A stretch of 64,000 nucleotides of DNA from Diadema setosum (taxonomy: Eukaryota; Echinodermata; Echinoidea; Diadematoida; Diadematidae). The stretch is from contig CM067077.1 in NCBI GenBank assembly GCA_033980235.1, forward strand, positions 3,275,972 through 3,339,971, in the 5' to 3' direction. The stretch's first letter is position 1. Each line of letters starts with the position of its first letter. A model generated the notes under the pieces. The model ran no database searches. It was not told where the DNA came from and was given only the letters and a program-made list of their open reading frames with translations. A program made the translations under genes and the position numbers. Shown piece by piece: positions 10,965 through 63,852 of this stretch.

Positions 10965-11132
10965 CTTCGATCCTGCTGCCGATGTAACAAGGGCAAGAAA
11001 GAAATCGTCTGCTATCTTGACATGGTCAAGCTTTAACGTCTGAAGGTTTGGCATGGTGCAGATACTCTTGGCGTAAGCCTCTGATGCAGCAGGGGAGATG
11101 TCAGGTTCCTCCTGGTGTGTTATTGATTGAAG
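10965..11132 (-). CDS. LRR exon 1 (subfamily A, intact)
   Basis: 168 nt, 56 codons, acceptor TGCAAAG| and donor AAG|GTATAT on the minus strand. It encodes two 28-residue LRRs: LQSITHQEEPDIS followed by SEAYAKSICTMPNLQTL, KLDHVKIADDFFLALVTSAAGSK. LALVTS is shared with subfamily B although the rest is type A, which suggests conversion between the two. It is the last intact array exon before the tail exons. Confidence 0.75.
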
Positions 11133-11909
11133 CTTTGCAGCAACATCATATAAGGAATAAATTAATGATTTGACCATTACAAAAAAATATGACCACATTA
11201 CTCTGACCAGTTCTCATATTCCCTCAATGGCTCCCCAAACATAAACGTATCAGCTTTAAAAATCCTCCTTATTGTTTACAAGATATGTAATAATCTTGCC
11301 CATCTTTTCTTCAAGATTTGATTTCCTTCTGCTCATCAACTTCAACCCGTTCTCTCCGTTCTTTCTCCACTCTCCAGTTATCACGTGGTCCCTGCACCTA
11401 TACCCGCAGCGGCTACGGCAATAATATGGCCTTTTTTTTTTCTGTTATTTCCCAACCTCTTTGCAATAAACTTCCTATCTATATTCGTAATGTAAGTGTT
11501 CACAAGTTCAAATCATTCTTGGAAACTTATCTGTTCACTCAATTCTAATTTTGTTGTTGTTGTTGCTGCTGTTGTTACATCTTATGCACATATAATGCTG
11601 TACCTTACCTCATTCCCCCCCCCCCCCGGATTATTGTGCTTAAAAATATCAGTATTACGCACCATACAAGGAATCAACTTTAGTGTCATTACTAATCTAG
11701 TATCTACTTATCTAGTACTTTCCAAAGACTATGTAATATGGCAATGCATTTAGAGAAACAAATTATTCTTTATAATCCAACAGGGCGAAAACATCGTTTT
11801 GCCTCGCAGTCATGCCTGTGTTTGTTCTTTTGTTTTTCTGTGTGTGTGTGTGTTTTATATTGCAGAAATATCTCCCAGTCATTGGAAATCAAGCGAAGAA
11901 AGGACAAAG
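11133..11909 (+). repeat. Array intron with fossil RT tail
   Basis: Plus-strand 11205-11550 reads as the C-terminal tail of a CR1/L2-type reverse transcriptase (RISFK and NNLAHLF region, then SRGPCTYTRSGYG, then LCNKLPIYIRN, KFKSFLETYLFTQF and a stop at 11546-11548). This is the best preserved copy of the tail in the window. It is followed by a poly-C tract at 11616-11628, the ATCAGTATTACGC block and the unit landmarks. Confidence 0.65.
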
Positions 11910-12077
11910 CTTTGCTCCTGCTGCTGATGTATCAAGGGCGAAAAAGAAATCGTCTGCTATCTTGACATGGTTATGCTTTAACGTCTGAAGGTTTGGCATG
12001 GTGCAGATACTCTTGGCGTAAGCCTCTGATGCAGCAGGGGAGATGTCAGGTCCTTCCCAGTGATCTATTGATTAAAG
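11910..12077 (-). pseudogene. LRR exon 2 (A, stop codon and lost donor)
   Basis: Full 168-nt length. The second codon is TAA (CTT TAA TCA ATA) and the donor GT has become CT (AAG|CTTTG instead of AAG|GTATC). The rest keeps SICTMPNLQTL. It cannot be spliced as a normal array exon. Confidence 0.75.
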
Positions 12078-12991
12078 CTTTGCAGCAACATTATAAGGAA
12101 TACATTATTGATATGACCATTCATAAATATATATACAATAATCTTGCTCATATTTTCTTAAAGATGTGATTTCCTTCTGCTCATCCACTTCAATCCTTTC
12201 TCTTCGTTCTTCCTTCACTCTCCAGTTATCACGTGATCTCCGCACCTATACCCGCAGCTGCTACATACGGTGATAGGGCTTTTTCGGTTACTACAGTATT
12301 TCCCCATCTCTTTGCAATAAACTCCCTATCTATATTCGTATATAATGGAAGTGTTGACCAAGTTCAAACCATTGTTGAAACTTATCTCTTTACTCAATCC
12401 TAATTTTGTTATTGTTGTTGTTGATGTTGCTGTTATGTCATATGCACATAATGCTGTATCATTCTGTCCTCATTTTTTTTTTCCGGATTAATGTACTTAG
12501 AAACATCAGTATTACGCGATAAGGAATCAACTTTAGTGTCATCAATAATAAATGCTACATTCATAAAGCTTATCATAACGCATGCTTTTATGTGCGCTGT
12601 ACAATGGGGATACAAAATATAAACAAACAAATGAATAAAAAGTATAACAATCAATCTAATACATACAATAATTAAAAAAAGGGTTATGAATATTCATCTT
12701 CATGATGGAAAACAGAAAAAACGGGTTTTCTTTCCATCCCTTCATCATCTCATTTGCATTACATGATCGTGTCTCATATCAACCTGTCATAAATGTAGAA
12801 AGGTGAAAACTATAAACATATGCTAAAACTGAGCAAATTTGAAAGAGACAAACTATTCTTTTTTAGTCCAACATGGCGAAAACATCGTTTAGTGTCTCAA
12901 TCACGTGTTTGTTTGTTTGCTTGTGTTTTTGAATTGCAGGAAGGTTTCCCGTGCATTGGAAACTAATATTCTAATGAGGCAAAGAAGATAC
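12078..12991 (+). repeat. Array intron with fossil RT tail
   Basis: The tail lies at about 12125-12402 and keeps the SLQ, NKLPIYI and LLKL segments with frame breaks. Unit landmarks follow. The CAGGAAGGTTTCCCGTGC block precedes the next exon. Confidence 0.6.
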
Positions 12992-13161
12992 CTTCGCTCG
13001 TGCTGCTGATGTAACAAGGGCAAGGAAAAAAAAAACCTGTGCTATTTTGACTTTGTATAGGTGTAACGTCTGAAGGTTTGGGATGGTGCAGATACTCTTG
13101 GGGTAGGACTCTTATACAGCAGGGGAGATGTCAGGTCCCTCAAGTGTATTATTGATCGAAG
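12992..13161 (-). pseudogene. LRR exon 3 (subfamily B, frameshifted)
   Basis: 170 nt instead of 168, with the extra bases in the T run (A run on plus, 13025-13035) between the KIA and LALVTS parts. Donor GTATCT and acceptor are kept. CTMPNL is altered to the equivalent of CTIPNL. Confidence 0.7.
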
Positions 13162-14434: not shown

Positions 14435-14605
14435 CTTCGCTCCTGCCGCTGATGTAACAAGGGCAAGAAAAAAAAAAACATGTGCTATTTTGACTTTGTA
14501 TAGGTGTAACGTCTGAAGGTTTGGCATGGTGCAGATACTTTTGGGGAAGGACTCTGATACAACAGGGGAGATGTCAGGTCCGCAAAGGTGTGTTATTGAT
14601 TGAAG
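14435..14605 (-). CDS. LRR exon 4 (subfamily B, in frame)
   Basis: 171 nt, 57 codons, with both splice sites present (GTATCT donor). It encodes LQSITHLCGPDIS, SESFPKSICTMPNLQTL, HLYKVKIAHVFFFLALVTSAAGAK. One extra Phe from the T run keeps the frame. Confidence 0.65.
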
Positions 14606-16015: not shown

Positions 16016-16192
16016 CTTCGATCCTGCTGCTGATGTACAGAGGGCAAGAAAGAAATCGTCTGCTATCTTGACATTGTGAAGCTCTAACGTCTGAAGGTTT
16101 GGCATGGTGCAGATACTCTTGGCGTAAGCCTCTGATGCAGCAGGGGAGATGCCAGGCATGAAAGGTCCTTCCCTGTGTTGTATTGATTGAAG
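16016..16192 (-). CDS. LRR exon 5 (A, in frame, 3-codon insertion)
   Basis: 177 nt, 59 codons. It encodes LQSIQHREGPFMPGIS, where three residues are added in the loop before SPAASEAYAKS, then QTLELHNVKIADDFFLALCTSAAGSK. Splice sites are standard (GTATAT donor). Confidence 0.7.
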
Positions 16193-17491: not shown

Positions 17492-17663
17492 TTTCGCTCC
17501 TGCTGCTGATGTAACACGGGCAAGAAAAAAAAAACATCTGCTATTTTGACTTTGTATATAGGTGTAACGTCTGAAGGTTTGGCATGGTGCAGATACTCTT
17601 GGGGTAAGACTCTGATACAACAGGGGAGATGGCACGTCCGCAAAGGTGTGTTATTGATTGAAG
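17492..17663 (-). pseudogene. LRR exon 6 (B, frameshifted)
   Basis: 172 nt. The excess comes from a TA duplication near 17559 and the homopolymer at 17526-17534. The donor GT is kept but the last exon base is changed (AAA|GTATC). The reading is split between frames within the second LRR. Confidence 0.7.
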
Positions 17664-18703: not shown

Positions 18704-18871
18704 CTTCGCTCCTGCTGCTGATGTACAGAGGGCAAGAAAGAAATCGTCTGCTATCTTGACATCGTGAAGCTCTAACGTCTGAAGGTTTGGCATGGTGCAG
18801 ATACTCTTGGCGTAAGCCTCTGATGCAGCAGGGGAGATGTCAGGTCCACTACTGTGTTTTATTGATTGAAG
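18704..18871 (-). CDS. LRR exon 7 (A, intact)
   Basis: 168 nt, 56 codons: LQSIKHSSGPDIS, SEAYAKSICTMPNLQTL, ELHDVKIADDFFLALCTSAAGAK. Standard acceptor and donor (GTATAT). Confidence 0.75.
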
Positions 18872-19162: not shown

Positions 19163-21754
19163 TCAGGTTTAGGTTTATTTAACACTTCCATAAAAACAAA
19201 TCAACATAAAACAGAAAACATTCAGCATTACAATCAATTAGACTACACAAAAGCATTATCATTACAACAACATTCATGAGAAGTATAACAAAACAAAATG
19301 ATTGGATAGTGTTGGGAGACAAGCAGAAAGGCACAGCCTTATATTTAAGCCTGTCTCCAGAAAAAATGTACACATATATTATAACAAATCATATCATGGA
19401 AATATTTTTGATAAATATAAAACATCTCAATTTCAGCAAGTTGAAACATGGCTGTACACACCTATCAGATACACACACACACACATACGCACGCCTACAC
19501 ACAAACGGCCTAACAATCAGAAAATTCAATGTATTGATTTAGAAGGTATAACTTGTATCTCCTTTGGAATAATCGTAATGATGTGCTGCCTCGAATATCA
19601 GGAGGAATTCCGTTCCATATTTTAGGTCCATTGACAAATATCGATTTTTGAGACGGCAAGGTTCTGGCAAAAGGAACACTATATACGTTAACATTTCTCA
19701 TATTATATCTACTCTTAGTATATAACTTAAGATAATCTAATAAACATTTAGGAATCATATTGTTAAAACACAAATACATAAATATTGCACACTGATAAAT
19801 ATAAATATCTTGAAACCTCAAAAGTTTCAATTGGTAAAATATTGGAGTAGTATGGGCATAATAATCACTGTGATTTATCGAACGAATAAGTTTCTTTTGA
19901 AGCAATAATATTCTATTCACATTTGACATACTAAAATTGGCCCATATTACCGAACAGTAATTCAAATGCGGGAGAGTTAAGGTATTATACAATATAATCA
20001 AAATATTTTTAGGTAAAAATTTCAATCTGGTAAAAACTCCAACATTTTTGGCTAATTTGTTGCAGATGACCCGAGTGTGCTCATTCCAGTTCAACTTATT
20101 ATCAATTATAACACCAAGAAATTTTGTTGAATTAACCTGCTTTATCATTACATCTTTAAATTTAATCTGTATATCACATATATTAATCTTTCTATTGGTA
20201 AACATTATATAATTTGTTTTATTTACATTTATCATAAGCCTATTACAATCAAACCAATCAACAAGTTTACTAAATTCCTTATTGAAATTACTTTGAAGTA
20301 CATGATGATCATTGTCGGACATAAACACACTCGTGTCATCCGCAAATAATATCATTTGTAATTTATTAGAAACATTGACCATGTCATTAATGTAGAGCAA
20401 AAAAAGGAGTGGGCCCAAAATAGATCCCTGGGGCACACCGCATCTTACTGACATCATTTTTGATTCTACAGCTTCAGAGGTCACAAACTGTTTACGATTA
20501 CTTAAATAACTTACAAACCATTCCAATACTACTCCACGAATTCCATACAAATAAAGCTTATATAATAAAATATCATGATTAAGAGTATCAAATGCCTTAC
20601 TTAAATCTAAAAATAACCCTATCATTACATCTCTATTATTAAAAACATTTACAACTTTATGAACAAATTCAATAATGGCAGAAGATGTGGAGTGACCTGC
20701 CCTAAAACCATATTGACTATTTGTTATGATATTGCACTTATCCAGAAATTTTACAATGCGTGTATATGCACACTTTTCTAAAATTTTTGAAAACAACGGT
20801 AAAAAAGAGACGGGACGGTAATTCGATATCTGTTCTTTTTCTCCACCTTTAAAAATAGGGAGAACTTTTGCTATTTTCATTTTATCAGGAACAGTACCTG
20901 TAGTAAATGACAAGTTGATTATTGCACATATTGGGATACACAAAATATGAATAACTTTCTTTACAATAGCTACATCAAAATTATCAAAACCAGGACTCGT
21001 ATCTTTTAATTTACACACAATATCAATGATCTCTTTTGGAGAGCATGGCAAGAAAAAGGCACTTGATGGGTTTTTATGAACATATTGCATGCATTTGTCG
21101 TATTCTATATCATCACATTGTCCTGCCACACTTTCCCCAATGTTAATAAAATATTCATTAAATGCATTACTTATTGCACATTTCCCAGTAACATCTTTAT
21201 CATTCCAATGAACAGTTGTGGGTAGTATATTCTTCTTAACTCCAGAGCCAATAATGCCATTTATTATCTTCCATGTGCTTCTAATGTTGCCAGATCTGTT
21301 TTCAAATTTCTCTTTAAAATAGAATCTTCTTGCATTTTTAATTTCTTGGGTTACATAATTTCGTAATACTTTATATTTGACATATCTCTCTTGAGTACGT
21401 TTTCTCAAATATCTTTTATACAGGATATACTTTTTATAGCATAACTTTCTTAAATCCTTATTAAACCATGGCTTGTTTCTGAACTTTTTTTCACCAATCT
21501 TTTTCAAAGGAAAGCACAAATTATAAATGTACTGAAATTTCTTCAAAAATTCATCATAGGCTACATTAACATCGCTAACATTTACATTCCAATTTACCTC
21601 ATTTACCTCTTTCATAAATTGACAAACATTATCATCATTTATTACATGCTTAAATATTGGATCAGAATTATGAAAATGTAACTCTAGATGAGAAAAAGAA
21701 AATATTGGAAAGTGATCACTTATATCTGCCAATAATATACCAGTAAACATATCC
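19163..21754 (-). mobile_element. 5'-truncated non-LTR retrotransposon
   Basis: The element sits between GTTGACCAAGTT and TCAAACCATTG, which are adjacent in other units, so both ends are placed to within a base or two. The 5' end (right side) cuts into the endonuclease domain. The 3' end (left) finishes with AAATAAACCTAAACCTGAA, without a long poly-A. The target duplication is at most one or two bases. Confidence 0.85.
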
Positions 21755-21789
21755 TCAAACCATTGTTGAAAACTTATCTGTTTACTCAA
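19510..21789 (-). CDS. Reverse transcriptase of the truncated non-LTR element
   Basis: The open frame is 759 codons. The first dozen codons (MSKQISFQQWFE) come from the array flank, so the ATG is accidental. Element sequence begins around DMFTGILLAD. SDHFPIF at residues 24-30 is the end of an APE-type endonuclease, most of which is gone. Reverse-transcriptase motifs are complete: SNYRPVSFLPLFSKILEK (322-339), QYGFRAGHSTS (359-369), motif A LFLDLSKAFDTLNHD (392-406), GVPQGSILGPLLFLLYINDM (451-470) and FADDTSVF (482-489). The C-terminal region ends LPSQKSIFVNGPKIWNGIP and a stop. The layout fits the CR1/L2/Daphne group; the exact clade needs a tree. The unbroken frame suggests a recent insertion, but the copy cannot move by itself without its endonuclease. 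Confidence 0.85.
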   Translation of the reverse strand: MSKQISFQQWFEDMFTGILLADISDHFPIFSFSHLELHFHNSDPIFKHVINDDNVCQFMKEVNEVNWNVNVSDVNVAYDEFLKKFQYIYNLCFPLKKIGEKKFRNKPWFNKDLRKLCYKKYILYKRYLRKRTQERYVKYKVLRNYVTQEIKNARRFYFKEKFENRSGNIRSTWKIINGIIGSGVKKNILPTTVHWNDKDVTGKCAISNAFNEYFINIGESVAGQCDDIEYDKCMQYVHKNPSSAFFLPCSPKEIIDIVCKLKDTSPGFDNFDVAIVKKVIHILCIPICAIINLSFTTGTVPDKMKIAKVLPIFKGGEKEQISNYRPVSFLPLFSKILEKCAYTRIVKFLDKCNIITNSQYGFRAGHSTSSAIIEFVHKVVNVFNNRDVMIGLFLDLSKAFDTLNHDILLYKLYLYGIRGVVLEWFVSYLSNRKQFVTSEAVESKMMSVRCGVPQGSILGPLLFLLYINDMVNVSNKLQMILFADDTSVFMSDNDHHVLQSNFNKEFSKLVDWFDCNRLMINVNKTNYIMFTNRKINICDIQIKFKDVMIKQVNSTKFLGVIIDNKLNWNEHTRVICNKLAKNVGVFTRLKFLPKNILIILYNTLTLPHLNYCSVIWANFSMSNVNRILLLQKKLIRSINHSDYYAHTTPIFYQLKLLRFQDIYIYQCAIFMYLCFNNMIPKCLLDYLKLYTKSRYNMRNVNVYSVPFARTLPSQKSIFVNGPKIWNGIPPDIRGSTSLRLFQRRYKLYLLNQYIEFSDC

Positions 21790-22384: not shown

Positions 22385-22550
22385 CTTCGCTCCTGCTGCT
22401 GATGTAATAAGAACAAGGGAAAAAAATCTGCTATTTTGACTTTGTATAGGTGTAACGTCTGAAGGTTTGCCATGGTGCAGATACTCTTGGGGAAGGACTC
22501 TGATACAACAGGGAGAAGTCAGGTCCGCAAAGGTGTGTTATTGATTGAAG
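22385..22550 (-). pseudogene. LRR exon 8 (B, frameshifted)
   Basis: 166 nt, two short of 168, with losses near the CAGGGAGAAGTC block (22507-22520) and changes in the T-run region. Splice sites are kept. The frame breaks in the first LRR. Confidence 0.7.
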
Positions 22551-25870: not shown

Positions 25871-26818
25871 TGGTGTCGGTTTATGTTCATGATTTGGGGA
25901 GGTATGACCAGCGAGGGGACGTCGAAGTGACCAAATGGGGGAAGGATATCCAAAACCTGCACTTTAGAGCATCCTTTAAAGGCATAATTTACCATTTGCA
26001 GATGAAACAAAAACTCAACATTAGTGCTTTAAAATAGTTCTAAAATGTGAGTTAGGGATAGAAACAACCACTGTAAAAATTTGAATCCGTATAATCGATG
26101 TTAAGTATTGTTGAATACACAAAATGTGAACAATAGTTATAATAAGAATGCTTCCAGAATAAACCGTATACAGTTATGGTTTATTGAGAAAAATGCTGAT
26201 ATCTCCTCATATTTTAGGCTTTATTGCAAAAATTTTATATGGTAGGATGTTTTATGATACAACAGACCTACACATATGCATCAAATGTGATATCTTGAAC
26301 ATTTGTAAAATCACTGCTCCCAAAGGTAAACTGGACCTTTAATATTACTGTTTGTGTTTGTGTGTGTGTGTGTTTTATATACATGAAAAAGTTAGGAAAT
26401 AGCCCAGGTCAAGTCTTATTATTGGCAATGCAAGGCATTTTGATATAGACTAGTATGTAAAGCAACACTGCAAAATCATTAATGATCTAGCTTTTAACGA
26501 AGAGTAAGGTACAAAGGTGTACATTCTACATCAAATTGCGCAACGTTACAGCAACTCTTTTTGCCGTTCGGATGTTCTGAGTACACTGCACACATCCTAC
26601 TTATATTCAGAATGCCAACCAGGAATCATGCTGAATCGCAATATTTTGTCGGCTCCGGACTTTTTGCACAATGTTTCACGTTATATACCTCTTTAATTAT
26701 GGTTACAAGAAATCTTAGAAAAATATCTTATTTCTTGATCCCCCTTTCATGTCGATTTCAAAAGCAGTTTAGTAACCCTTGAATTACCATTTTGGTAAGT
26801 TTTTTATTCTTTTTTTAA

Positions 26819-30721: not shown

Positions 30722-31394
30722 CTTCTCTCCTGCTGCTGATGTACAGAGGGCAAGAAAGAAATCGTCTGCCATCTTGACATACTGAGGACCTGAATATAAG
30801 AACGACCCAAGTCCAATTTTTGACCAAATTTAGTTTGACATGGGAAATTGTGGCTTATGCATGGACTCATCTTGTGTATAAATGATAAATCCTAATTACC
30901 CCCGGAAGTGCCTGAAATATATGACTTAAATCTTATATGAATGTAAACATGAAGGACTTGGGTCGTTCTTACATTCATATTATAGCGCCCTCTCTCGTCC
31001 TTCTCTAATCTCTATAGCAAAATATCATATATATGAATCAAAGAACGACCCAAGTCCATATGAATCAAAGAACGACCCAAGTCCATCACACAAACTGGCC
31101 TCTCCACAATTAATGTAAATGTTAATTGTCATAATAATATATGTTCTAAATTGCATACAATGCTGCTTTCCCATCACAGTTAAATAGAATATTATTGGAC
31201 AAATAAAAAAAAAATGAAGTTTTTTAAAGTTTACTTGAAATGGTCATCCATGGACTTGGGTCGTTCTTATATTCATATACTCCATTGTAAAGCTCTAACA
31301 TCTGAAGGTTTGGCATGGTGCAGATACTCTTGGCGTAAGCCTCTGATGCAGCAGGGGAGATGTCAGGTCCAGCACGGTGTCTTATTGATTGAAG
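30722..31394 (-). pseudogene. LRR exon 9 (A) split by a MITE
   Basis: The exon is in two pieces: 31285-31394 (first LRR and start of the second, from LQSI to QMLEL-like codons) and 30722-30780 (end, FLALCTSAAG then donor GTATAT). The insertion 30781-31284 falls in the codons before KIADD. Without it the exon would have near-standard length. The acceptor side also has GGCAAAG in place of TGCAAAG, keeping AG. Confidence 0.75.
30781..31284. mobile_element. MITE inserted in LRR exon 9
   Basis: 504 bp. The ends are inverted copies of AATATAAGAACGACCCAAGT (about 30793-30812 and, inverted, 31255-31274). The same motif recurs inside near 30955-30980 (inverted) and as a direct pair at about 31038-31085, so the element is compound. 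The flanks share CAT. It has no coding capacity. Confidence 0.75.
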
Positions 31395-32422: not shown

Positions 32423-32590
32423 CTTCACTCCTGCTGCTGATGTAACAAGGGTAAAAAAAAGAAAATCTACTATTTTGACTTTGTATAGGTGTAACGTCTG
32501 AAGGTTTGGCATGGTGCAGATACTCTTGGAGTAGGACTCTGATACCACAGGGGAGATGTCAGGTCCGCAAAGGTGTGTTATTGATTGAAG
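32423..32590 (-). CDS. LRR exon 10 (subfamily B, intact)
   Basis: 168 nt, 56 codons. It encodes LQSITHLCGPDIS, SESYSKSICTMPNLQTL, HLYKVKIVDFLFFTLVTSAAGVK. Both splice sites are present. It is the only B copy with exactly the standard length. Confidence 0.7.
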
Positions 32591-33622: not shown

Positions 33623-33790
33623 CTTCGATCCTGCTGCTGATGTACAGAGGGCAAGAAAGAAATCGTCTGCTATCTTGACATTGTGAAGCTCTAACGTCTG
33701 AAGGTTTGGCATGGTGCAGATACTCTTGGCGTAAGCCTCTGATACAGCAGGGGAGATGTCAGGTCCTCCCTCGTGGTGTATTGATTGAAG
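33623..33790 (-). CDS. LRR exon 11 (A, intact)
   Basis: 168 nt: LQSIHHEGGPDIS, SPAVSEAYAKSICTMPNLQTL, ELHNVKIADDFFLALCTSAAGSK, donor GTATAT. It shares HHEGGP with exons 12 and 22 but pairs it with a different second strand. Confidence 0.75.
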
Positions 33791-34205: not shown

Positions 34206-34373
34206 CTTCGATCCTGCTGCTGATGTACAGAGGGCAAGAAAGAAATCGTCTGCTATCTTGACATCGTAAAGCGTTAACCTCTGAAGGTTTGGCATGGTGC
34301 AGATACTCTTGGCGTAAGCCTCTGATGCAGCAGGGGAGATGCCAGGTCCTCCCTCGTGGTGTACTGATTGAAG
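34206..34373 (-). CDS. LRR exon 12 (A, intact)
   Basis: 168 nt: LQSVHHEGGPGIS, SEAYAKSICTMPNLQRL, TLYDVKIADDFFLALCTSAAGSK. Standard splice sites. Because the downstream intron (33791-34205) is short, exons 11 and 12 lie only 583 bases apart. Confidence 0.75.
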
Positions 34374-35311: not shown

Positions 35312-35479
35312 CTTCGCTCCTCCTGCTGATGTACAGAGGGCAAGAAAGAAATCGTCTGCTATCTTGACATTGGAAAGCCCTAACGTCTGAAGGTTTGGCA
35401 TGGTGCAGATACTCTTGGCGTAAGCCTCTGATGCAGCAGGGGAGATGTCATGTCCTCCCCAGGGTTCTATTGTTTGAAG
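35312..35479 (-). CDS. LRR exon 13 (A, intact)
   Basis: 168 nt: LQTIEPWGGHDIS, SEAYAKSICTMPNLQTL, GLSNVKIADDFFLALCTSAGGAK. It has the most divergent first strand (EPWGG) of the in-frame copies. Confidence 0.75.
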
Positions 35480-35572: not shown

Positions 35573-35639
35573 ATCTTGCTCATACTTTCTTAAAGATTTG
35601 ATTTCCTTCTATGGAACGCCATTAAGGAAACAATACAAA

Positions 35640-43329: not shown

Positions 43330-43440
43330 CTTCGATCCTGCTGCCGATGTACAGGTGGCAAGAAAGGAATCGTCTGCTATCTTGTCATCGAAAAGCTTTA
43401 ACCGACGGTTTGGCATGGCGCAGTGTGTTATTGATTGAAG
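43330..43440 (-). CDS. LRR exon 14 (A, in-frame 57-nt deletion)
   Basis: 111 nt, 37 codons. Acceptor and donor (GTATAT) are kept. It reads LQSITHCAMPNRRLKLFDDK and then IADDSFLATCTSAAGSK. Nineteen residues from the loop and helix of the first LRR are lost, so the two strands are fused. The frame is still phase 0-0. It may be tolerated as a shortened module or be decaying. Confidence 0.5.
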
Positions 43441-44322: not shown

Positions 44323-44499
44323 CTTCGCTCCTGCTGCCGATGTAACAAGGGCAAAAAAAAAAAAAAAAAAAAAATCTGCTATTTTGACTTTGTATAGGTG
44401 TAACGTCTGAAGGTTTGGAATGGTGCAGATACTCTTGGGGTAGGACTTTGATATAACAGGGGAGATGTCAGGTCCGCAAAGGTGTGTTATTGATTGAAG
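44323..44499 (-). CDS. LRR exon 15 (B, in frame, poly-Phe)
   Basis: 177 nt, 59 codons. It encodes LQSITHLCGPDIS, SKSYPKSICTIPNLQTL, HLYKVKIADFFFFFFFALVTSAAGAK. A run of 21 T on the minus strand gives seven Phe in place of the usual DDFFLAL. The acceptor is TGTAAAG and the donor GTATCT. The frame is open, but a seven-Phe stretch is unlikely to fold as a normal LRR. Confidence 0.55.
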
Positions 44500-45542: not shown

Positions 45543-45710
45543 CTTCGATCGTGCTGCTGATGTACAGAGGGCAAGAAAGAAATCGTCTGCTATCTTGACA
45601 TTCTGAAGCTTTAACGTCTGAAGGTTTGGCATGGTGCAGATACTCTTGGCGTAAGCCTCTGATGCAGCAGGGGAGATGTCAGGTCCTTCCCTGTGTTGTA
45701 TTGATTGAAG
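45543..45710 (-). CDS. LRR exon 16 (A, intact)
   Basis: 168 nt: LQSIQHREGPDIS, SEAYAKSICTMPNLQTL, KLQNVKIADDFFLALCTSAARSK. The first strand QHREGP matches exon 5 while the second strand differs. Confidence 0.75.
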
Positions 45711-46766: not shown

Positions 46767-46850
46767 CTTCTCTCCTGCTGCTGATGTACAGAGGGCAAGA
46801 AAGAAATCGTCTGCTATCTTGACATCGTCAAGCGTTAACCCCTGAAGGTT
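46767..46850 (-). pseudogene. LRR exon 17 (A), second LRR only
   Basis: 84 nt, exactly 28 codons (NLQGLTLDDVKIADDF, then FLALCTSAAGEK), with a normal donor. The upstream half and the acceptor are replaced by TTTTTTTTCCGGATTAATGC from a later point in the unit, joined at GAAGGTTT. It lacks an acceptor in its normal place. Confidence 0.7.
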
Positions 46851-47138
46851 TTTTTTTTCCGGATTAATGCACTTAGAAACATCAGTATTACGCGCTAAGG
46901 AATCAACTTTAGTGTCCTCAATAATAAATGCTACATTCATATACCGTATGGACATAATGCTGGTACTTTATACCTCATTTCTTTAGGGATTAAAGCCCTT
47001 AGAAACGTCAGCATTACGCGCTATATAAGGAATCAACCTTAGTGTCACCAATAATAAATGCTACATTCATAAGAGCATCAAAAACACATGCTTCTTTAAT
47101 TATGCGCTGTACAATTCATATACAAGATACAATATATG
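46851..47138. repeat. Rearranged spacer between exon halves
   Basis: Contains the ATCAGTATTACGC and GTCAGCATTACGC blocks in series and ends at CAAGATACAA, where it joins the middle of the next exon. The RT tail and the landmark half of the unit are missing. Confidence 0.65.
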
Positions 47139-47251
47139 ATATGGTGAAGCGTTAACCTCTGAAGGTTTGGCATGGTGCAGATACTCTTGGCGTAAGCACC
47201 TGATGCAGCAGAGGAGATGTCAGGTCCACGACTGTGTTCTATTGATTGAAG
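47139..47251 (-). pseudogene. LRR exon 18 (A), first LRR and strand only
   Basis: 113 nt from the acceptor side (LQSIEHSRGPDIS, SGAYAKSICTMPNLQRLTLHH). The part after it, including the donor, is cut at about 47138. Together with exon 17 it looks like two ends left by unequal exchange. Confidence 0.7.
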
Positions 47252-48155: not shown

Positions 48156-48323
48156 CTTCGATCCTGCTGCTGATGTACAGAGGGCAAGAAAGAAATCGTC
48201 TGCTATCTTGACATTGTGAAGCTCTAACGTCTGAAGGTTTGGCATGGTGCAGATACTCTTGGCGTAAGCCTCTGATGCAGCAGGGGAGATGTCAGGTCCG
48301 TACCAGTGGTCTATTGATTGAAG
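48156..48323 (-). CDS. LRR exon 19 (A, intact)
   Basis: 168 nt: LQSIDHWYGPDIS, SEAYAKSICTMPNLQTL, ELHNVKIADDFFLALCTSAAGSK. The donor-side flank is identical to that of exon 24 up to the codons for KIADD, after which the two exons differ. Confidence 0.75.
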
Positions 48324-48993: not shown

Positions 48994-49168
48994 CTTTGCT
49001 CCTGCTGCTGATGTAACAAGAGCAAGAAAATTATTTATTTTTTACTGCTATTTTGACTTTGTATAGGTGTAACGTCTGAAGGTTTGGCACGGTGCAGATA
49101 CTCTTGGGGTAGGACACTGATACAACAGGGGAGATGTCAGGTCCGCAAAAGTGTGTTATTGATTGAAG
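48994..49168 (-). pseudogene. LRR exon 20 (B, frameshifted)
   Basis: 175 nt. A T/A-rich expansion (49029-49043) in the variable tract shifts the frame and brings a stop after HLYKVKIAVKNK. Splice sites are kept. Confidence 0.7.
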
Positions 49169-50768: not shown

Positions 50769-50942
50769 CTTCGCTCCTGCTGCTGATGTACAGAGGGCAA
50801 GAAAGAAATCTTCTGCTATCTTGACATTGAAAAGCTTTAACCTCTGAAGGTTTGGCATGGTGCAGATACTCTTGGCGTAAGCCTCTGATGCAGCACGGGA
50901 GAATGACATGTCAGGTCCTTCCCAGTGTTCTATTGATTGAAG
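50769..50942 (-). CDS. LRR exon 21 (A, in frame, 2-codon insertion)
   Basis: 174 nt, 58 codons: LQSIEHWEGPDMSFSR, then AASEAYAKSICTMPNLQRL, KLFNVKIAEDFFLALCTSAAGAK. The two extra residues fall in the same loop as the insertion in exon 5. Confidence 0.7.
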
Positions 50943-51871: not shown

Positions 51872-52039
51872 CTTCGATCCTGCTGCTGATGTACAGAGGG
51901 CAAGAAAGAAATCGTCTGCTATCTTGACATCGTGAAGCTCTAACGTCTGAAGGTTTGGCATGGTGCAGATACTCTTGCCGTAAGCCTCTGATGCAGCAGG
52001 GGAGATGTCAGGTCCTCCCTCGTGGTGTATTGATTGAAG
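51872..52039 (-). CDS. LRR exon 22 (A, intact)
   Basis: 168 nt: LQSIHHEGGPDIS, SEAYGKSICTMPNLQTL, ELHDVKIADDFFLALCTSAAGSK. Standard splice sites. Confidence 0.75.
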
Positions 52040-52992: not shown

Positions 52993-53160
52993 CTTCGATC
53001 CTGCTGCTGATGTACAGAGGGCAAGAAAGAAATCGTCTGCTATCTTGACATCGTCAAGCGTTAACCTCTGAAGGTTTGGCATGGTGCAGATACTCTTGGC
53101 GTAAGCACCTGATGCAGCAGAGGAGATGTCAGGTCCACGACTGTGTTCTATTGATTGAAG
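52993..53160 (-). CDS. LRR exon 23 (A, intact)
   Basis: 168 nt: LQSIEHSRGPDIS, SGAYAKSICTMPNLQRL, TLDDVKIADDFFLALCTSAAGSK. Standard splice sites. Confidence 0.75.
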
Positions 53161-54064: not shown

Positions 54065-54232
54065 CTTCGATCCTGCTGCTGATGTACAGAGGGCAAGAAA
54101 GAAATCGTCTGCTATCTTGATATGGTGAAGCGTTAACCTCTGAAGGTTTGGCATGGTGCAGATACTCTTGGCGTAAGCCCCTGATGCAGCAGAGGAGATG
54201 TCAGTTCCACGACTGTGTTCTATTGATTGAAG
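54065..54232 (-). CDS. LRR exon 24 (A, intact)
   Basis: 168 nt: LQSIEHSRGTDIS, SGAYAKSICTMPNLQRL, TLHHIKIADDFFLALCTSAAGSK. The acceptor lies 62 bases from the LTR element, which now occupies the intron between exons 25 and 24. Confidence 0.75.
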
Positions 54233-56596: not shown

Positions 56597-57811
56597 TTAT
56601 TCCTTTGGGCATCGGCTGAGAAAGTCAGCGGCTACATTGTCTGTGCCCTTAACAGCAATCACTGTGTACCTGTAAGGCTGCAGGGCGAGTGCCCATCTCA
56701 ACACTCTACTGTTATGAATCTTGGCTTGGGCAAGATACATGAGTGGGCGGTGGTCGACTTCGAGCTGGAAGTGAGAGCCGTAGAGAAACACGTCAAACTT
56801 TTTGACAGCCCAGGCTAGGGCTAGGCACTCCCGCTCGATGACAGCATACCTACGTTCAGCATCCGATAGCTTGCGGCTGACGTAAGCGACGGGGAATTTC
56901 CCCTCTCCTATGCGCTGCATGAGTACCGCGCCTATTCCTACATCGGAGGCATCCGTTGCTAGGATATACGGCAGCTCGGGGTTCGGAAGGTGTAGGATGG
57001 GTGGGGCTGAGAGGCGCGCTTTGAGGGTATCGAATGCCCTCTGTTCTAGGTCCCCCCATTCTACCTTGTTAGGAAGTCCCTTCTTTGTGAGATCCGTTAG
57101 TGGCACGGCGATGGCGGCAAAGTTCGGGATGAATTTCCTATAATACCCGGCAAGGCCTAGGAATGCTCGCACCTGTGTCTTTGTCTTTGGTGCCTCAGCA
57201 TTCAGAATTTGGCTCACTTTGTCTGGATGTGGTTTTAGAGTACCGTCCCCCACTACATGACCCAAAAAGTCCAACGATCTAAACCCCACATGACATTTGC
57301 TTGGCTTGGCGGTCAAGCCTGCTTCCGCGAGCCGCTGCATCGCGCTTTCCAAAGCATGGAGGTGCTCCTCCCATGTCTCGGAGTACACAAGAATGTCATC
57401 AATATAATTGACAACATTTGTCAGTCCCTCTAACACGGTGCGCATGAGCCTCGAGAAGATGGCGGGGGCATTTACCATCCCAAAAGGTAACACCGTGAAT
57501 TGGTTCAGTCCATCGTCCGTCCCAAATGCTGTTTTCCCTTTGTCTTGTTCACGCATAGGGATCTGCCAATATCCCTTGCTCAGATAGAATTTAGAGAAAT
57601 ATCTCCCCTTGGAGAGTGATGACAAGAGATCATCAACATTTGGGATGGGCTCCGGATCGAACACTGTGATGGCATTAATCTTTCTGTAATCGACACAGAA
57701 CCGATTTGTGCCGTCCTTCTTACGCACAAGCACAATGGGAGATGCATATTCTGAAACTGATTTCTCTATTACTCCCATTTTCAGCATGTCGTCAACTTCT
57801 TTTCGAATGGT
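56597..57811 (-). CDS. Reverse transcriptase and RNase H of the LTR element (defective)
   Basis: The frame is open from just after the TAG at 57812-57814. The first ATG is at 57787, giving 396 codons. Reverse-transcriptase motifs are: ASPIVLVRKKDG (15-26), RFCVDYRKIN (29-38), motif A as FSKFYLSKGYWQIP (64-77), QFTVLPFGMVNAPAIF (96-111), YIDDILVY (128-135) and FLGHVVG (174-180). RNase H follows: ATDASDVGIGAVL (277-289), ERECLALAWAVKKF (318-331), LEVDHRPLMYL (342-352) and NVAADFLSR (384-392), with acidic residues D279, E318 or E320, D345 and D388 in place. Residue 68 is Tyr where the family has the first catalytic Asp. This copy's polymerase is therefore expected to be inactive even if the stop were read through. 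Confidence 0.9.
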   Translation of the reverse strand, partial: TIRKEVDDMLKMGVIEKSVSEYASPIVLVRKKDGTNRFCVDYRKINAITVFDPEPIPNVDDLLSSLSKGRYFSKFYLSKGYWQIPMREQDKGKTAFGTDDGLNQFTVLPFGMVNAPAIFSRLMRTVLEGLTNVVNYIDDILVYSETWEEHLHALESAMQRLAEAGLTAKPSKCHVGFRSLDFLGHVVGDGTLKPHPDKVSQILNAEAPKTKTQVRAFLGLAGYYRKFIPNFAAIAVPLTDLTKKGLPNKVEWGDLEQRAFDTLKARLSAPPILHLPNPELPYILATDASDVGIGAVLMQRIGEGKFPVAYVSRKLSDAERRYAVIERECLALAWAVKKFDVFLYGSHFQLEVDHRPLMYLAQAKIHNSRVLRWALALQPYRYTVIAVKGTDNVAADFLSRCPKE

Positions 57812-60800
57812 CTAGGGCACAGCCTGTGGCATGGGATACGGTTTGCTGACAATGGGACTAGCAGTCGTCAGTTTCAGACTGCATTCCGCCATGTTTGTCC
57901 TCCCAGGGACGTCGCTTAGCTGTTGCTCATAGCGTTTCAGCACCTCGTGTGCTTGCTCGCGCTGTGCGTCGCTCAAATTTGTGTCGAGGCAGACATCCTC
58001 GATATTTTCTGTCCGAGAGAGCATCGGCATATCTATTCGCGCCTTTGCTATGTCGGGCTCCTCATCTCTGTCTTCGAAGACAGTCGCGGCGCTTGCTTGA
58101 GCCACAGTGGCGTCGCGCTCCACGTAACCTTTTAGTAGGTTTGCGTGGTAGGTTTTCAACTTCCCTTCTACATCAATGCGGAAATCGCATTTCCCCACCT
58201 TTTGCTTGATCTCGTATGGCCCTTGCCACTGCATGAGTAGCTTGCTGCTGCTGCTTGGCCTAAGTAGAAGTACCTCCTCTCCGACATTGAAATGCCTATC
58301 GCGCGCCTTCGTGTCATAGTACTTCTTGTAGCGCTTCTGGTTTCGCAGCAGTTCATTTTGCGCGAGTTCGCATGTCTGATCGAGCCGTTCTCGAAGATCA
58401 ACTACATACTCATAGGTGGTCTTTACCTCCTCGTTTACATCAGTCCCTTCCCACATTGTCTGTACGAGAGAGAGGGGCCCGCGCACCGTCCTCCCGTACA
58501 GCAGCTCGAAGGGGCTGAATCCGAGGCTAGCTTGCGGCACCTCTCTATACGCGAAAAGGACTGCCGCGAGGTATCTATCGCAGTCCTTCGGACGCTCGCT
58601 ACACATTCTCCGCAGCATTGTTTTGATCGTGCCGTTGAATCTCTCCACCATGCCGTTGCACATGGGGTGATAAGGGGTCGTCATACGCTGTTTTACGGAA
58701 AGCAGCCGCGCGATTTCCTTCATCAATTCCGAGGTGAATTGCGCTCCCCTATCACTGAGGATTTCCTCCGGCAACCCGAGCCTGCTAAATATCTCTAGCA
58801 GTGCCTCCGCAATGCGCTCTGTTTCTATACTCCGCAGCGCGACCGCCTCGGGATAGCGCGTCGCATAGTCTACCAGGGTGAGAATGTACCTGTTACCGCG
58901 CTCCGTAATTGGATCTATGGGCCCTAACAAGTCGATCGCCACTCGCTTGAAGGGGGTGTCGATGAGAGGCATCTCCCCCAGCGGTACCCTCGGCACGCTG
59001 CCCTTCTTTACCGTGCGCTGGCAAATATCGCAAGAGATGCAGTAACGCCTGACCTCACCCATCATCCCTGGCCAATGAAATTTGGCTTGTAATCTGTCTA
59101 GGGTCTTTTGAGTTTTGAGGTGCCCTGCCATTACCCCATCATGGGCTAGGGCCATCAGCCCATTTCGATACTTCTTGGGTACCACTAACTGCCTAACAGT
59201 TTGCCCATGATCAACTTTGGGAGATTCATACTCTCTGTATAGCAACCCTTGCACTACAGTGTAGTGGGTCTCACTCCCCTTACTCGTTGTCTTACTCCGC
59301 CCCTGCCTTGCATCCTCCCACAACTTAGCAAGTGTTTCATCCCCCCTTTGGGCCTCGCTAAACTCCTCCTTGTTGGATGCCAGGAGCATTGCTTCAGATA
59401 CTGTGAGGGGCTTCAGGGGTTTTTCCCTCCTGGCTTTCTGCCCTCGGGTTTCTACTGCCCCACCCCTCTCACTGTCCATAACGGACTCGTCCCCGCCCTC
59501 CTTAGGAAAATCCCAATTTGGATCGGGGTCTCCGGGTGCTCTGACCCCCGCTATATTCCCCAGAGTGAGGTCGTATAGCGGCTTACGCATCACTAGCGCC
59601 TCCACATCCCCTTTGTAATAAGGGGTATCTATTGCTACGCGTGCGACCGGCACCTCGCGCACTGTCCCGTCGAGCAACACACACCTCTGTATCTTGCCCA
59701 GCAGTTGCCCTGGTGATGTCAAACTTTCTTTGACCACCACTGTGCTGCAGCCACTATCACGTAACACTGAGGCTTCACGCCCCGAAACCACTCCCTTAAC
59801 TACGGGCATGTTCCCACTGTCACTTGAGTTAGCTGCATTCACTACTGGCAGCTCACCCCCGTTACGTGGTACATCATACTTGACGAGGGATGCATGTAGG
59901 CATGCAGCCCCCGACTCCGCACTCTTAGTGTTATCTACCTCTGCCTTTGTGTCGGTTTGCTTTAGCTGTAGCCCAGCTGCTCGGTTGAATTTGCCTGTAT
60001 TGCCTTTTGCTCGGCAGTCTTTTGAGATATGCCCTAGCTTTCCACAATTGTAACATCTTGGGGATGCTACTACACTGCCTCCATTTTTGTTTTGGGCCTG
60101 AGTGTTTTGTCTTTGCTGGGAGTTGGGCATTGGTGAGCTTCGCTTTGAGTCGTGTTTCATTTTGGGATGAGCCTCCTGGTACTGTTGGGCCAGTGTGATA
60201 AGACCCTCCAGTCCGTTAGGCCTTCTCTCTTTGATGAAGAGTTTCATTTCCTTCGGGCAGACCTTATACATCTGCTCAATGATGAACAATTCACACAGTC
60301 CCTCAAAGCTCTGTTCAATTCCAGCCAACTCCACCCATCTTAACAAATACCTCCTCAGTCGTTCCGAAAACTGGCTGTAGGTCTCGCCCTCTTCAGGCTG
60401 AGAACCACGAAATTTCTCCCTAAACCCCTCTTCTGTGAGTTCATATCTATGGAGCAGTGCACTTTTAAGTTTATCATAGTCATTGGCATCCTCGCTGGGC
60501 AAACGTGTGTACACTTCCAGAGCTTTCCCTGTTAGGAGAGTGCTAAGTGGAAGTGACCACTCTTCTCTATCCCACCCCGAGCTCTGGGCATAGCGCTCAA
60601 ACCGACACAAAAATGAATCCATGTTGTCATGCTTGTCATTAAACATGGGCAACCTTTGCACTCCTACTGCGCTCGGTCTCTCTGCTCGTGTTTTGCCTTC
60701 GGTAGCGATCTTCAATTCAATCTCTTTGAGAGTCTGTTGGTGCTCTCTTTCTTTTTGTCGCTCATCTCTTTCTTTATCTTTTACATCAACTACCTTTTGC

Positions 60801-60925
60801 CGCTCCTCCCGAGCGAATGCCAACAAATCCTCTCCCGAAAGGCCTACCTCTTTACCCATTTCAAGATATGGTTTCAAATCCATTTTGAAAATATCGGGCC
60901 GAAAATACCAAAGTGTTATAAACAC
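57812..60925 (-). CDS. Gag-protease-integrase polyprotein of the LTR element
   Basis: 1,037 codons, ending at a TAG (57812-57814) in frame with the polymerase region. The likely start is the second Met (residue 15, base 60883), as MDLKPYLEMGKEVG. A charged coiled-coil-like segment (40-75) is followed by a gag core (about 90-250), a zinc knuckle CYNCGKLGHISKDC (291-304), and an aspartic protease with LRDSGCST (active D390-S-G). The integrase zinc-binding part has H595, H602, C629 and C632. The catalytic core is D665 (RVAIDLLGP), D725 (SDRGAQF) and E761 (GMVERFNG), with D35E spacing. A GPY/F-like module is GPYEIKQKVGKCDFRI (902-917). All key residues are present. The terminal TAG seems to be a mutation and not a programmed site, since the frame continues directly into polymerase sequence. 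Confidence 0.9.
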   Translation of the reverse strand: MFITLWYFRPDIFKMDLKPYLEMGKEVGLSGEDLLAFAREERQKVVDVKDKERDERQKEREHQQTLKEIELKIATEGKTRAERPSAVGVQRLPMFNDKHDNMDSFLCRFERYAQSSGWDREEWSLPLSTLLTGKALEVYTRLPSEDANDYDKLKSALLHRYELTEEGFREKFRGSQPEEGETYSQFSERLRRYLLRWVELAGIEQSFEGLCELFIIEQMYKVCPKEMKLFIKERRPNGLEGLITLAQQYQEAHPKMKHDSKRSSPMPNSQQRQNTQAQNKNGGSVVASPRCYNCGKLGHISKDCRAKGNTGKFNRAAGLQLKQTDTKAEVDNTKSAESGAACLHASLVKYDVPRNGGELPVVNAANSSDSGNMPVVKGVVSGREASVLRDSGCSTVVVKESLTSPGQLLGKIQRCVLLDGTVREVPVARVAIDTPYYKGDVEALVMRKPLYDLTLGNIAGVRAPGDPDPNWDFPKEGGDESVMDSERGGAVETRGQKARREKPLKPLTVSEAMLLASNKEEFSEAQRGDETLAKLWEDARQGRSKTTSKGSETHYTVVQGLLYREYESPKVDHGQTVRQLVVPKKYRNGLMALAHDGVMAGHLKTQKTLDRLQAKFHWPGMMGEVRRYCISCDICQRTVKKGSVPRVPLGEMPLIDTPFKRVAIDLLGPIDPITERGNRYILTLVDYATRYPEAVALRSIETERIAEALLEIFSRLGLPEEILSDRGAQFTSELMKEIARLLSVKQRMTTPYHPMCNGMVERFNGTIKTMLRRMCSERPKDCDRYLAAVLFAYREVPQASLGFSPFELLYGRTVRGPLSLVQTMWEGTDVNEEVKTTYEYVVDLRERLDQTCELAQNELLRNQKRYKKYYDTKARDRHFNVGEEVLLLRPSSSSKLLMQWQGPYEIKQKVGKCDFRIDVEGKLKTYHANLLKGYVERDATVAQASAATVFEDRDEEPDIAKARIDMPMLSRTENIEDVCLDTNLSDAQREQAHEVLKRYEQQLSDVPGRTNMAECSLKLTTASPIVSKPYPMPQAVP

Positions 60926-61077
60926 GAGCTGCAGTCAGTAGGGTAGCTCTACCAGTTTAACACGTATGATTATTACGGTTACAAAAACCACATTTGTTTC
61001 CTCTCAGACTCAAGCCTTAAAATTTCCTCTTTAATATGGGCAGGAAATTTCACATGCCCGGGTTCTCCACCAAAATA
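60926..61077 (-). promoter_or_regulatory. 5' leader with possible primer binding site
   Basis: A few bases inside the 5' LTR the minus strand reads TGGTGGAGAACCCGGGCATG (61054-61073 on plus). TGG near the LTR edge is the usual start of a tRNA primer site. The matching tRNA is not assigned. Confidence 0.5.
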
Positions 61078-62830
61078 TGTCACAGGGCGCTGCCGCCGCA
61101 CCGCCCCGTAACTGGACCAAAGGCTCTCTCTTCTGAGAGTCTACAAAGTAGGCGAAACAAATGCTTCTTCAGTTCAATAATTGCGTGGTTTATTGTGCTG
61201 AATTTTGAAACGTACTTTGTATTTACAGCATAGAAATAAAAGTGGTGATTAACAATCAAACACTGACAAAATCATTGCCCATTTAAGAGATACATTTAGT
61301 TAACATTATCGCTAAAGCCAGTTGATTCTTGTTCTCGGGATGAGATCATCAATTCTGTCCTCGCCCATGGGTCTAAGTTTCATCAAACTTGATTCCCCTC
61401 TAGACGGAGTCCCCTCGATCCCTCTCTAGTAGGCTCTGCAGTCCAGTACCGTTGGAGCTTACTCCAGCCTAAAACTCCTTACTCCCACCTTAAACTCGGA
61501 TCCTTGCTCCGACATTAACCGCCCTGTCAATTACAATGAGTGACATACACTCATAAGTTCAATAATCTTAACGAAACACTATTATACAATTGCTCAATGA
61601 AATTGTTCCTTCATAAATGAAACACCTACATTTCATGAGTTTAAGACAGGTTATCGGCTTGTATGTTTACATCAACAAATCTGTCAACGCTGGGTCAGCC
61701 AGCGAGGATTAACTGTCATGGAAACTGTGTTCCCAGTTATGGCCCTAGGCCACTGGTGCAATAAATCTTTATGGTCTTTTAGCTCAGTGTTCTGAAATGG
61801 CTTGTAGTAGTACTGGCTAAACTATTAAACATTCCCTCACTCTTACAATACATGTAACAAAATACTGTGAGGCAATAATGACATAAAAATATTATATCTT
61901 GACTCTTCATCTTATAAAGGATTACATAATTACATGAAAATTACAATGAGAAAGATTGGTCAACTTACAACTTTCGTTGGCGTTTCTCCCCTTTCTGTGC
62001 AAGTTACTTTCTCCCTGGCCCCTGCCGCAACCTCCTCGGGTTGATGAGAGATTTCTCTAGTGCTCAGACTCTCAAACGTACACTGAATGTGGCCTTTTGC
62101 CACCACAACCTCTTCCTCCTTGTTCCAAATCCATCTACCAAAGGGTAGACCAGTATGTCGGCGACACTGATGTACACCGAACCCTCCCAACGAACTGGAT
62201 ACAAGCGTAGTGATTTCACAAACAATTTTGTGCTCTGGTCTGAAGATATTTGGGTTTTGCATCCCGGTTTTGTTCTCCAAAATTTCCTTCTTAACTACAC
62301 TTGTCTATGTAGGACCAATCACTGTATATTAATTTATTAACCAAGTTATCTTATTGGAGGAGGGGGTTAGATGGTTCAGAAAACTTTCTACCAATTGGTC
62401 AGACTGGACACACCCCTATGAGTGACTTTTCCTTACTTTCAAAGAATTGTTTTTGAACCTGATTTCCAAAGAAGGAGGATATTCCTCTGACGTTAGCTGA
62501 CCACTGCAGCTGGGTGTGACTATCAATTTCTTAACCTATGCCTCTTCTGGGCTGTCCTCCCACTGGTGGACATTTGGCAGGTTTATGACCCTCGCTCCTG
62601 GTAGCGGTCTCCACTTGGTGTGAGTCACCCTCTCTCTTTATTTATGCTTTATTACACTCGTGCCCCTGACGTAATGACGGGCTGAGGGGTTACTACCCTC
62701 TTGCTTCCTGTGCAGTGTAAACTCATTTTTAGTGAATGCCTTGCACATAAACATAAATTTGATGTAAAAGGGCTGATGAGATTATCAGTAGGACTTTCAC
62801 ATGGACAATGTAACCTACCATGTCGTGACA
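61078..62830 (-). repeat. 5' LTR (1,753 bp)
   Basis: Same ends as the 3' LTR. It carries an extra 18 bases around 61722-61740 (AACTGTGTTCCCAGTTATGG region). It should contain the promoter. No TATA box is assigned with confidence. Confidence 0.9.
61960..62280 (-). CDS. 106-codon frame inside the 5' LTR
   Basis: Counterpart of 55157-55477, differing at residue 14 (Ile here, Phe there). If transcription starts upstream within the LTR, this could be the first frame on the element RNA. No domain is recognised. Confidence 0.25.
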   Translation of the reverse strand: MENKTGMQNPNIFRPEHKIVCEITTLVSSSLGGFGVHQCRRHTGLPFGRWIWNKEEEVVVAKGHIQCTFESLSTREISHQPEEVAAGAREKVTCTERGETPTKVVS

Positions 62831-63678
62831 TATATAATAATCTTGCTCATACTTTCTTAAAGATTTGATTTCCTTCTGCTCATCCACTTCAACCCGTTCT
62901 CTCCGTTCTTCCTTCACTCTCCAGTTATCACATGGCCCCCGCACCTATATACCCGCAGCGGCTACGGCGATATGTTTGTTTTTTCCCCCATCTCTTTGTA
63001 AGAAAAAACTCCCTATCCATATTCGTAATTAAAGTGCTGACCAAGTTCAAATCATTGTTGAAAACTTATCTGTTTATTCAATCCTAATTTTGTTGTTCTT
63101 GTGTTGCTATTGTTATATCGTATGCACATGATGCTGGTACTTTATACCTCATTTCTTTCGGGATTAAAGCCCTTAGAAACGTCAGCATTAGGAATCAACT
63201 TTAGTGTCATCAATAATAAATGCTACATTCGTAAAGCGCATCAAAAACACATGCTTCTTTAATTATGCGCGGTACAATTCATATATAAGGCACAAACAAA
63301 CAAATGAATAACAAGAATAACAACCAATCTAATACATACAATGATTAACGAAAAGGGGTTAAGAATATTCATCTTGATGATGGAAGACGGAAAAGCAGGT
63401 TTTCTTTCCATTCCTTTTTCATTTCATTCGCATTACGTGATCGTGTCCCATGAACCTGTCATAAACGTATCAAGGTGACAACTATAAACATGAAATACTT
63501 TGCTAAGATTATGTAACATGGAAAGAAACAGACTATTCTTTTTAGTCCAACACGGCGAAAACAACGTTTAGTATCTCAATCATCTGTTTGTTTGTTTCTT
63601 TTTGTGTTGTTTTTTTTTTTATTGCAAGAAGGTTTACCATCCATTGAAAACCAAAAGAAGCAAAGAAGATACATATAC

Positions 63679-63852
63679 CGTCGATCCTGCTGCTGATGTA
63701 CAGGGGGCAAGAAAGAAATCGTCTGCTATCTTGACATTACAAAGAGTAACGGTTAACCTCTGAAGGTTTGGCCTGGTGCAGATAATCCCGGCGTAAGCCT
63801 CTGATGCAGCAGAGAAGATGTCAGGTCGACGACTGTGTTCTATTGATTGAAG
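63679..63852 (-). CDS. LRR exon 25 (A, in frame, divergent)
   Basis: 174 nt, 58 codons: LQSIEHSRRPDIF, SEAYAGIICTRPNLQRL, TVTLCNVKIADDFFLAPCTSAAGST. Two codons are added in the second strand, and the core has M to R and K to G changes. The last codon is ACG in place of AAG before the GTATAT donor, as expected if it is drifting. It is the most upstream exon of the gene in this window. Confidence 0.6.

Follow-up and report, generated by a model that had tools for sequence, protein, structure and literature searches.

The window analyzed here is a stretch of 64,000 nucleotides (nt) from the sea urchin Diadema setosum (contig CM067077.1, forward-strand positions 3,275,972–3,339,971). It carries a long tandem array of exon copies encoding pairs of leucine-rich repeats (LRRs), followed by three exons for a C-terminal cap. 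We regard it as likely that the window contains the 3′ portion of a single innate immune receptor gene of the NLR type (NACHT-LRR), with a germline-diversified LRR sensor under diversifying selection.

For the detection of exon copies, a nucleotide profile made from eight of them was run against the window. This gave 26 matches between positions 63852 and 10965, all on the minus strand, with E-values from 2.1e-18 to 2.7e-61. Because two copies contain an insertion and were matched in two parts each, the matches represent 24 distinct copies, or 25 together with a weak remnant. A first-pass annotation of the sequence had described 25 copies on one strand, and both number and orientation agree with the profile search. 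The array is real, its count being well past chance. The features are given below in the direction of transcription; in the text, copies are named by their higher coordinate.

63679..63852, minus strand: A-type LRR-pair exon, 174 nt, in frame
54065..54232, minus strand: A-type LRR-pair exon, 168 nt, in frame
52993..53160, minus strand: A-type LRR-pair exon, 168 nt, in frame
51872..52039, minus strand: A-type LRR-pair exon, 168 nt, in frame
50769..50942, minus strand: A-type LRR-pair exon, 174 nt, in frame
48994..49168, minus strand: B-type exon copy, 175 nt, frameshifted
48156..48323, minus strand: A-type LRR-pair exon, 168 nt, in frame
46767..47251, minus strand: A-type exon copy interrupted by a ~0.3-kb insertion
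45543..45710, minus strand: A-type LRR-pair exon, 168 nt, in frame
44323..44499, minus strand: B-type exon copy with poly-T run, 177 nt, in frame
43330..43440, minus strand: A-type exon copy shortened to 111 nt by an internal in-frame deletion
35312..35479, minus strand: A-type LRR-pair exon, 168 nt, in frame
34206..34373, minus strand: A-type LRR-pair exon, 168 nt, in frame
33623..33790, minus strand: A-type LRR-pair exon, 168 nt, in frame
32423..32590, minus strand: B-type exon copy, 168 nt, in frame
30722..31394, minus strand: A-type exon copy interrupted by a ~0.5-kb insertion
22385..22550, minus strand: B-type exon copy, 166 nt, frameshifted
18704..18871, minus strand: A-type LRR-pair exon, 168 nt, in frame
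17492..17663, minus strand: B-type exon copy, 172 nt, frameshifted
16016..16192, minus strand: A-type LRR-pair exon, 177 nt, in frame
14435..14605, minus strand: B-type exon copy, 171 nt, in frame
12992..13161, minus strand: B-type exon copy, 170 nt, frameshifted
11910..12077, minus strand: A-type exon copy with stop at codon 2 and donor lost
10965..11132, minus strand: A-type LRR-pair exon, 168 nt, in frame, the final full copy in the array
8399..8442, minus strand: weak remnant of an LRR exon start (profile match, E 0.0054)
8060..8167, minus strand: C-terminal cap exon 1, 36 amino acids (aa), phase 0/0, AG and GTAAGT (tblastn with Diadema proteins)
2413..2460, minus strand: C-terminal cap exon 2, 16 aa, phase 0/0, AG and GTTCGT (tblastn with Diadema proteins)
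498..853, minus strand: C-terminal cap exon 3, 356 nt, phase-2 donor GTAAGT (tblastn with Diadema proteins)

The standard copy is 168 nt long, symmetric with phase 0 at both ends and encodes two LRRs; its length and phase had been given correctly before. The usual acceptor is TTGCTGCAAAG, and the donor is GTATAT in A-type and GTATC in B-type copies. Seventeen of the 24 copies are in frame, as had also been counted, though just 13 of these are clean A-type exons, the others being three B-type copies with a poly-T run (44499, 32590, 14605) and the copy of 111 nt (43440). Among the 23 start-to-start intervals, 11 measure 1.06–1.21 kb, eight 0.58–1.77 kb and four 3.7–9.6 kb, so that the spacing of about 1.05–1.2 kb reported earlier applies to 11 intervals and not to the other 12. 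Three of the four long intervals contain retrotransposon open reading frames (ORFs) or an inverted-repeat element. The cap exons below position 10965, the distinct B-type exons and the focus of variation on strand positions were absent from the first-pass annotation.

The cap exons were located by searching the window (tblastn) with those Diadema proteins that were matched by ten joined exon translations. All three (8167–8060, 2460–2413 and 853–498) have AG/GT sites and are continuous in frame with one another. Their product is 92% identical to the D. setosum protein P0131 and 88% identical to P0017 of D. antillarum (168 aa); the last coding piece of the cap probably lies below window position 1. 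Arrays of 15–16-bp minisatellites were seen at 7058–7575, near the first cap exon.

Both protein searches made with the array covered the best 7993–7996 shared-word candidates only. Among the matches listed, 19 of the 21 proteins matched by the ten joined exon translations came from Diadema, P0018 of Strongylocentrotus purpuratus being the only named one from elsewhere, and 32 of the 33 proteins matched by a profile search for similar arrays were from Diadema as well. Related NACHT proteins are present in other urchins. In D. setosum P0022 (1418 aa), an N-terminal region is joined to a NACHT domain (precomputed Pfam) and to 14 units in tandem like those found in the window, 13 of them clean. 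A NACHT domain is carried by both P0011 and P0016 (Pfam); in D. antillarum P0011 (E 2.8e-23) it is combined with four such units. Since P0022 joins NACHT to such tandem units, the window most likely belongs to a Diadema NLR gene whose NACHT exon lies beyond position 64000. The earlier suggestion that the exons are joined in series and in frame is borne out by D. setosum gene models in which 13, 15 and 20 clean units follow one another, while P0017, P0131 and similar models have just one or two. The proposed joint between SAAGSK at one exon end and LQSI at the next start occurs three times in exactly this form in P0011, and similar K/LQSI joints are found along P0022. As a side observation, the predicted Diadema proteins P0026, P0063, P0088 and P0091 contain immunoglobulin-type domains alongside NACHT or further parts of NLRs and may be fusions or annotation errors.

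Homologue arrays were used for domain and structure calls because a single unit is too short. Pfam LRR_2 was found above threshold on the arrays of P0002, P0003 and P0011. The profile check suggested earlier for translated exons gave LRR_2 on two of four single exons, in both cases sub-threshold, and a sequence search of the PDB with the exon unit returned weak matches only (best E 0.054). The predicted model of P0011, with a mean predicted local distance difference test (pLDDT) value of 82 (28 sequences), has a helical N-terminal bundle, a NACHT region and then regular strand-helix repeats. Its best Foldseek matches were NOD2, NLRC4 and NLRP3 (E 1e-23 to 1e-22) with modest whole-chain TM-scores (top 0.46/0.53), which together with the NACHT-bearing Diadema homologues agrees with the assignment of the repeats as NLR-type. 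The N-terminal bundle may be a death-fold by our own reading of the model, Pfam giving no Death or CARD match there. The D. setosum model P0002, which comprises the array only, was predicted to form an LRR solenoid (mean pLDDT 90, nine sequences) and is closest in structure to NLRP proteins, plant LRR F-box proteins, ribonuclease inhibitor and Toll-like receptors; pLDDT falls below 50 at residues 759–794 only. In the predicted models of these two homologues, as distinct from the window exons themselves, each unit forms strand-helix-strand-helix, in line with the claim of two LRRs per exon. For the unit starting at residue 707 of P0011, strands are predicted at unit positions 3–7 and 32–36. Thus, positions 5, 7, 34 and 36 alternate with the core residues 4, 6, 33 and 35, and positions 8 and 37 come just after the strands. 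The region of positions 5, 7, 34 and 36 is presumably the concave, ligand-facing sheet of the known LRR fold.

For the 13 clean copies, the proportions of synonymous (pS) and nonsynonymous (pN) differences were 0.035 and 0.101. With insertion columns left out, a ratio of nonsynonymous to synonymous divergence (dN/dS) of 2.99 was obtained (column bootstrap 1.73–6.97), which is inflated because the exon pS is very low, so that introns are the fairer yardstick. The ten x-codons of the two LxxLxLxx motifs (of 56 codons), a set defined after the variation table was known, hold 60% of the nonsynonymous differences, a share matched by 1 of 100,000 random ten-codon sets; without copy 63852, the share is 66% and is matched by none of 100,000. 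Divergence (p) was 0.442 at the six hottest codons (unit positions 5, 7, 8, 34, 36 and 37), a value inflated because these codons were chosen from the same copies, and 0.041 at the rest of codons 1–39. The 12 fully scored clean copies carry 12 different six-residue combinations at the hot positions. The 120-bp intron flanks of 14 A-type copies (the broken copy 12077 included) gave a mean p of 0.128 upstream and 0.175 downstream, with medians of 0.073 and 0.119 lying under the means. Hence, the hot codons change faster than the introns and the other exon codons more slowly.

A local mutation or gene-conversion hotspot at the strand codons could produce such a pattern with no selection on binding. 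Synonymous and nonsynonymous change are both raised at the x-codons (pS 0.173, pN 0.316), where dN/dS for the 13 copies is 2.09 compared with 3.66 elsewhere; with 12 copies, the values are 3.79 and 3.00. The seven B-type copies show a similar overall exon divergence (0.087 compared with 0.082 in the A type) but little bias toward the hot codons, with 0.079 at the same six codons and 0.054 elsewhere (minimum-mutation table, Fisher p 0.005), which speaks against a hotspot. Also, several of the same positions are among the most variable in other arrays: of the six hot positions, six in P0002, four each in P0003, P0001, P0004, P0007 and P0009, and three in P0005 are within the ten most variable of these seven other Diadema arrays, in which further positions, e.g. 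31, 39 and 49, are variable too. We therefore judge a hotspot improbable, and diversifying selection appears to be the best explanation for the clustering of variation at the predicted binding face.

Every one of the 39 indels from pairwise comparison of A-type exons has a length divisible by three (three distinct inserts; copies other than that of 111 nt), compared with 33 of 120 and 55 of 182 in the two flanks. This speaks against an old NLR gene in decay, whose LRR exons would be drifting and filling with transposable elements. The low divergence of the non-hot exon codons relative to the introns, the in-frame cap exons with their close match to a D. setosum protein and the focus of variation on strand positions do not fit such a relic either. 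What it would account for are the broken copies, the poly-T runs of the B type and the LINE-like, Gypsy-like and inverted-repeat elements within the array; overall, we consider it very improbable.

The B-type copies, all within 12992–49168, share a nearly fixed variant sequence with a poly-T run in the second LRR. Four of the seven are frameshifted, yet the type recurs through the array and in D. setosum gene models. A role as alternative short exons was considered, since P0002 uses a 37-residue B-type piece. This piece falls in the low-confidence residues 759–794 of the P0002 model, and B-type copies were therefore taken as mostly non-contributing, a view weakened by P0023 (a model marked low quality), which includes longer B-type pieces.

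At the level of whole exon-intron units, 23 of 24 had a match of at least 400 bp within the array, and for 21 of these 23 the nearest unit was 84–97% identical. The closest pairs, 53160/47251 (99.3% over 415 bp) and 54232/48323 (96.9% over 653 bp), are consistent with the duplication of a block of two units. Repeats of ~1 kb are difficult to assemble, and a pair at 99.3% might suggest collapsed or artificially repeated reads. The other units differ from their best matches to the extent given above and carry different insertions, and comparable arrays are predicted in both D. setosum and D. antillarum, which leaves an assembly artefact with a negligible probability. When 89 units of eight arrays were placed in one tree, the array labels required 18 changes compared with 61.7 after shuffling, and 12 of the 13 P0022 units form one supported group; the window units group loosely with P0011 and two P0023 units. 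This grouping by array indicates that several arrays expand or homogenize within a lineage. The array also decays, as seen from seven broken copies in 24 and the large elements inside it. Of the earlier claim of an actively expanding locus, expansion is thus backed by the near-identical pairs, and the broken copies and inserted elements count against it.

Several other elements were observed within the array. Between copies 63852 and 54232, Gypsy-like ORFs (zinc knuckle, integrase, reverse transcriptase, RNase H and also a SCAN match) lie at 56597–60925 on the minus strand. A LINE-like element between copies 22550 and 18871 has an open ORF of 759 residues for a reverse transcriptase (Pfam RVT_1; 19510–21789, minus strand). 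An inverted repeat (35610–36255 and 41850–42507; 91% over 673 columns, with minisatellite-like arrays inside) bounds ~6.9 kb between copies 43440 and 35479 and resembles a mobile element. Finally, a palindromic ~0.58-kb element is present in two copies of opposite orientation (26814–27390 and 49530–50103; 81% identical).

Besides the limits named with the dN/dS ratio, the codon set, the hot codons and the intron medians, the following points weigh against a diversifying NLR gene. Homologue protein searches detected no NACHT or other N-terminal exon in the window, and Pfam gave no Death or CARD match in P0011 or P0016. The entropy profiles of five of the seven other arrays correlate only moderately with that of the window (Spearman 0.28–0.53). 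In the tree, the window's own 12 units are weakly clustered (8 changes compared with 11.5 shuffled), and the four units of P0011 do not cluster. Of the 24 copies, seven are broken, namely four B-type copies by frameshift, one A-type copy by an early stop with loss of the donor, and two copies by a split.

The first-pass annotation had also proposed a combinatorial receptor, in which different exon subsets would be spliced per cell to give many LRR solenoids from one gene. All 13 clean exons preserve the frame, and the difference between the predicted isoforms X1 (P0004) and X2 (P0008) of D. antillarum amounts to exactly one block of 56 residues. The P0011 model, which bears the name isoform X2, reads into the intron behind an LRR exon at its end, and the same tail follows window exon 33790. 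The LRR exon donors, GTATAT instead of GTAAGT, are possibly weak. There is also precedent in two reports, in which human NLRP3 skips a single LRR exon of 171 bp (PMC6642158) and LRR exons of brown-algal ROCO genes are alternatively spliced (PMC11378527). However, the D. setosum models run through their clean units in series, serial inclusion explains the variation pattern equally well, and the isoform pair and the read-through of P0011 are predicted gene models that do not show regulated choice. The proposal thus keeps a thin basis in one isoform pair differing by one unit, and we consider it unlikely. Equally doubtful is a wider form of it, in which the interchangeable LRR-pair exons of a single NLR gene, each bearing a binding surface of its own, spliced in subsets and recombined between generations, would act as a diversity generator and give an individually variable intracellular receptor repertoire without somatic gene rearrangement.

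For the preferred reading, a germline-diversified NLR sensor, the following mechanism may be proposed. N-terminal and NACHT exons would lie above position 64000, and serial splicing of the clean exons would yield a single cytosolic LRR solenoid with about 26–34 repeats. Upon sensing of a ligand, the solenoid would free the NACHT module to oligomerize. Acting on exon-intron units in the germline, unequal crossing-over and gene conversion would let the array grow, shrink and homogenize; a unit can be gained or lost without a shift of frame, since every clean exon begins and ends in phase 0. Selection would favor new residues at the outward strand positions 5, 7, 8, 34, 36 and 37, and the outcome would be a series of different binding surfaces on a near-invariant scaffold.

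Among known proteins, Diadema P0022 and P0011 share the unit and the exon-to-exon joint with the window, and the window cap is that of P0131, P0133 and P0017. In contrast to P0022 and P0011, the window is without the NACHT part, and its array is a distinct set of copies in which insertions and broken B-type copies occur. A working likeness, not homology, exists to repeat-array receptors under concerted evolution and diversifying selection in that units within an array resemble each other more than units from separate arrays do (18 compared with 61.7 changes over eight arrays). To our knowledge, human NLRP3 has no tandem array of near-copies. The gene has frame-preserving, skippable LRR modules of one exon each, with a length of 171 bp close to that of the window exon (PMC6642158). 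Zebrafish NLR groups 2b and 4 resemble the window in their single-exon LRRs, and gene conversion is described for the family; positive selection was placed there in the B30.2 domain, which is absent from groups 2b and 4, and not in the LRRs, whereas the window varies at the LRR strands (PMC4852459). For the purple sea urchin, about 200 NLR loci are given (PMC5521101). No report of an animal LRR array of the design proposed for the window was seen among the open-licence papers listed by literature searches, most of which were covered by title and abstract opening.

Nearest in design are the brown-algal ROCO genes, for which tandem symmetric LRR exons, exon shuffling, alternative splicing and four positively selected sites on the concave face are reported (PMC11378527). 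They differ by 72-bp phase-2 exons for single LRRs, a ROC-COR GTPase and an algal host, whereas the window has a 168-nt phase-0 exon for an LRR pair, probably a NACHT domain and an animal host (PMC11378527). Fungal NWD/HET NLRs have near-identical repeats, concerted evolution and a few strongly selected surface codons per repeat (PMC1805685, PMC4986451); their repeats are WD40 and those of the window LRR (PMC1805685). All this bears on the question of how a fixed germline set of NLRs keeps pace with microbes. The locus suggests one route, namely a repeated exon whose scaffold stays fixed while a small number of codons predicted to face the ligand change fast, with duplication and homogenization in the germline; variation between individuals and exon choice at the locus are directly testable by long reads. 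Compared with the algal parallel, the differences here are an animal host, a receptor class that is probably NACHT and an exon encoding an LRR pair.

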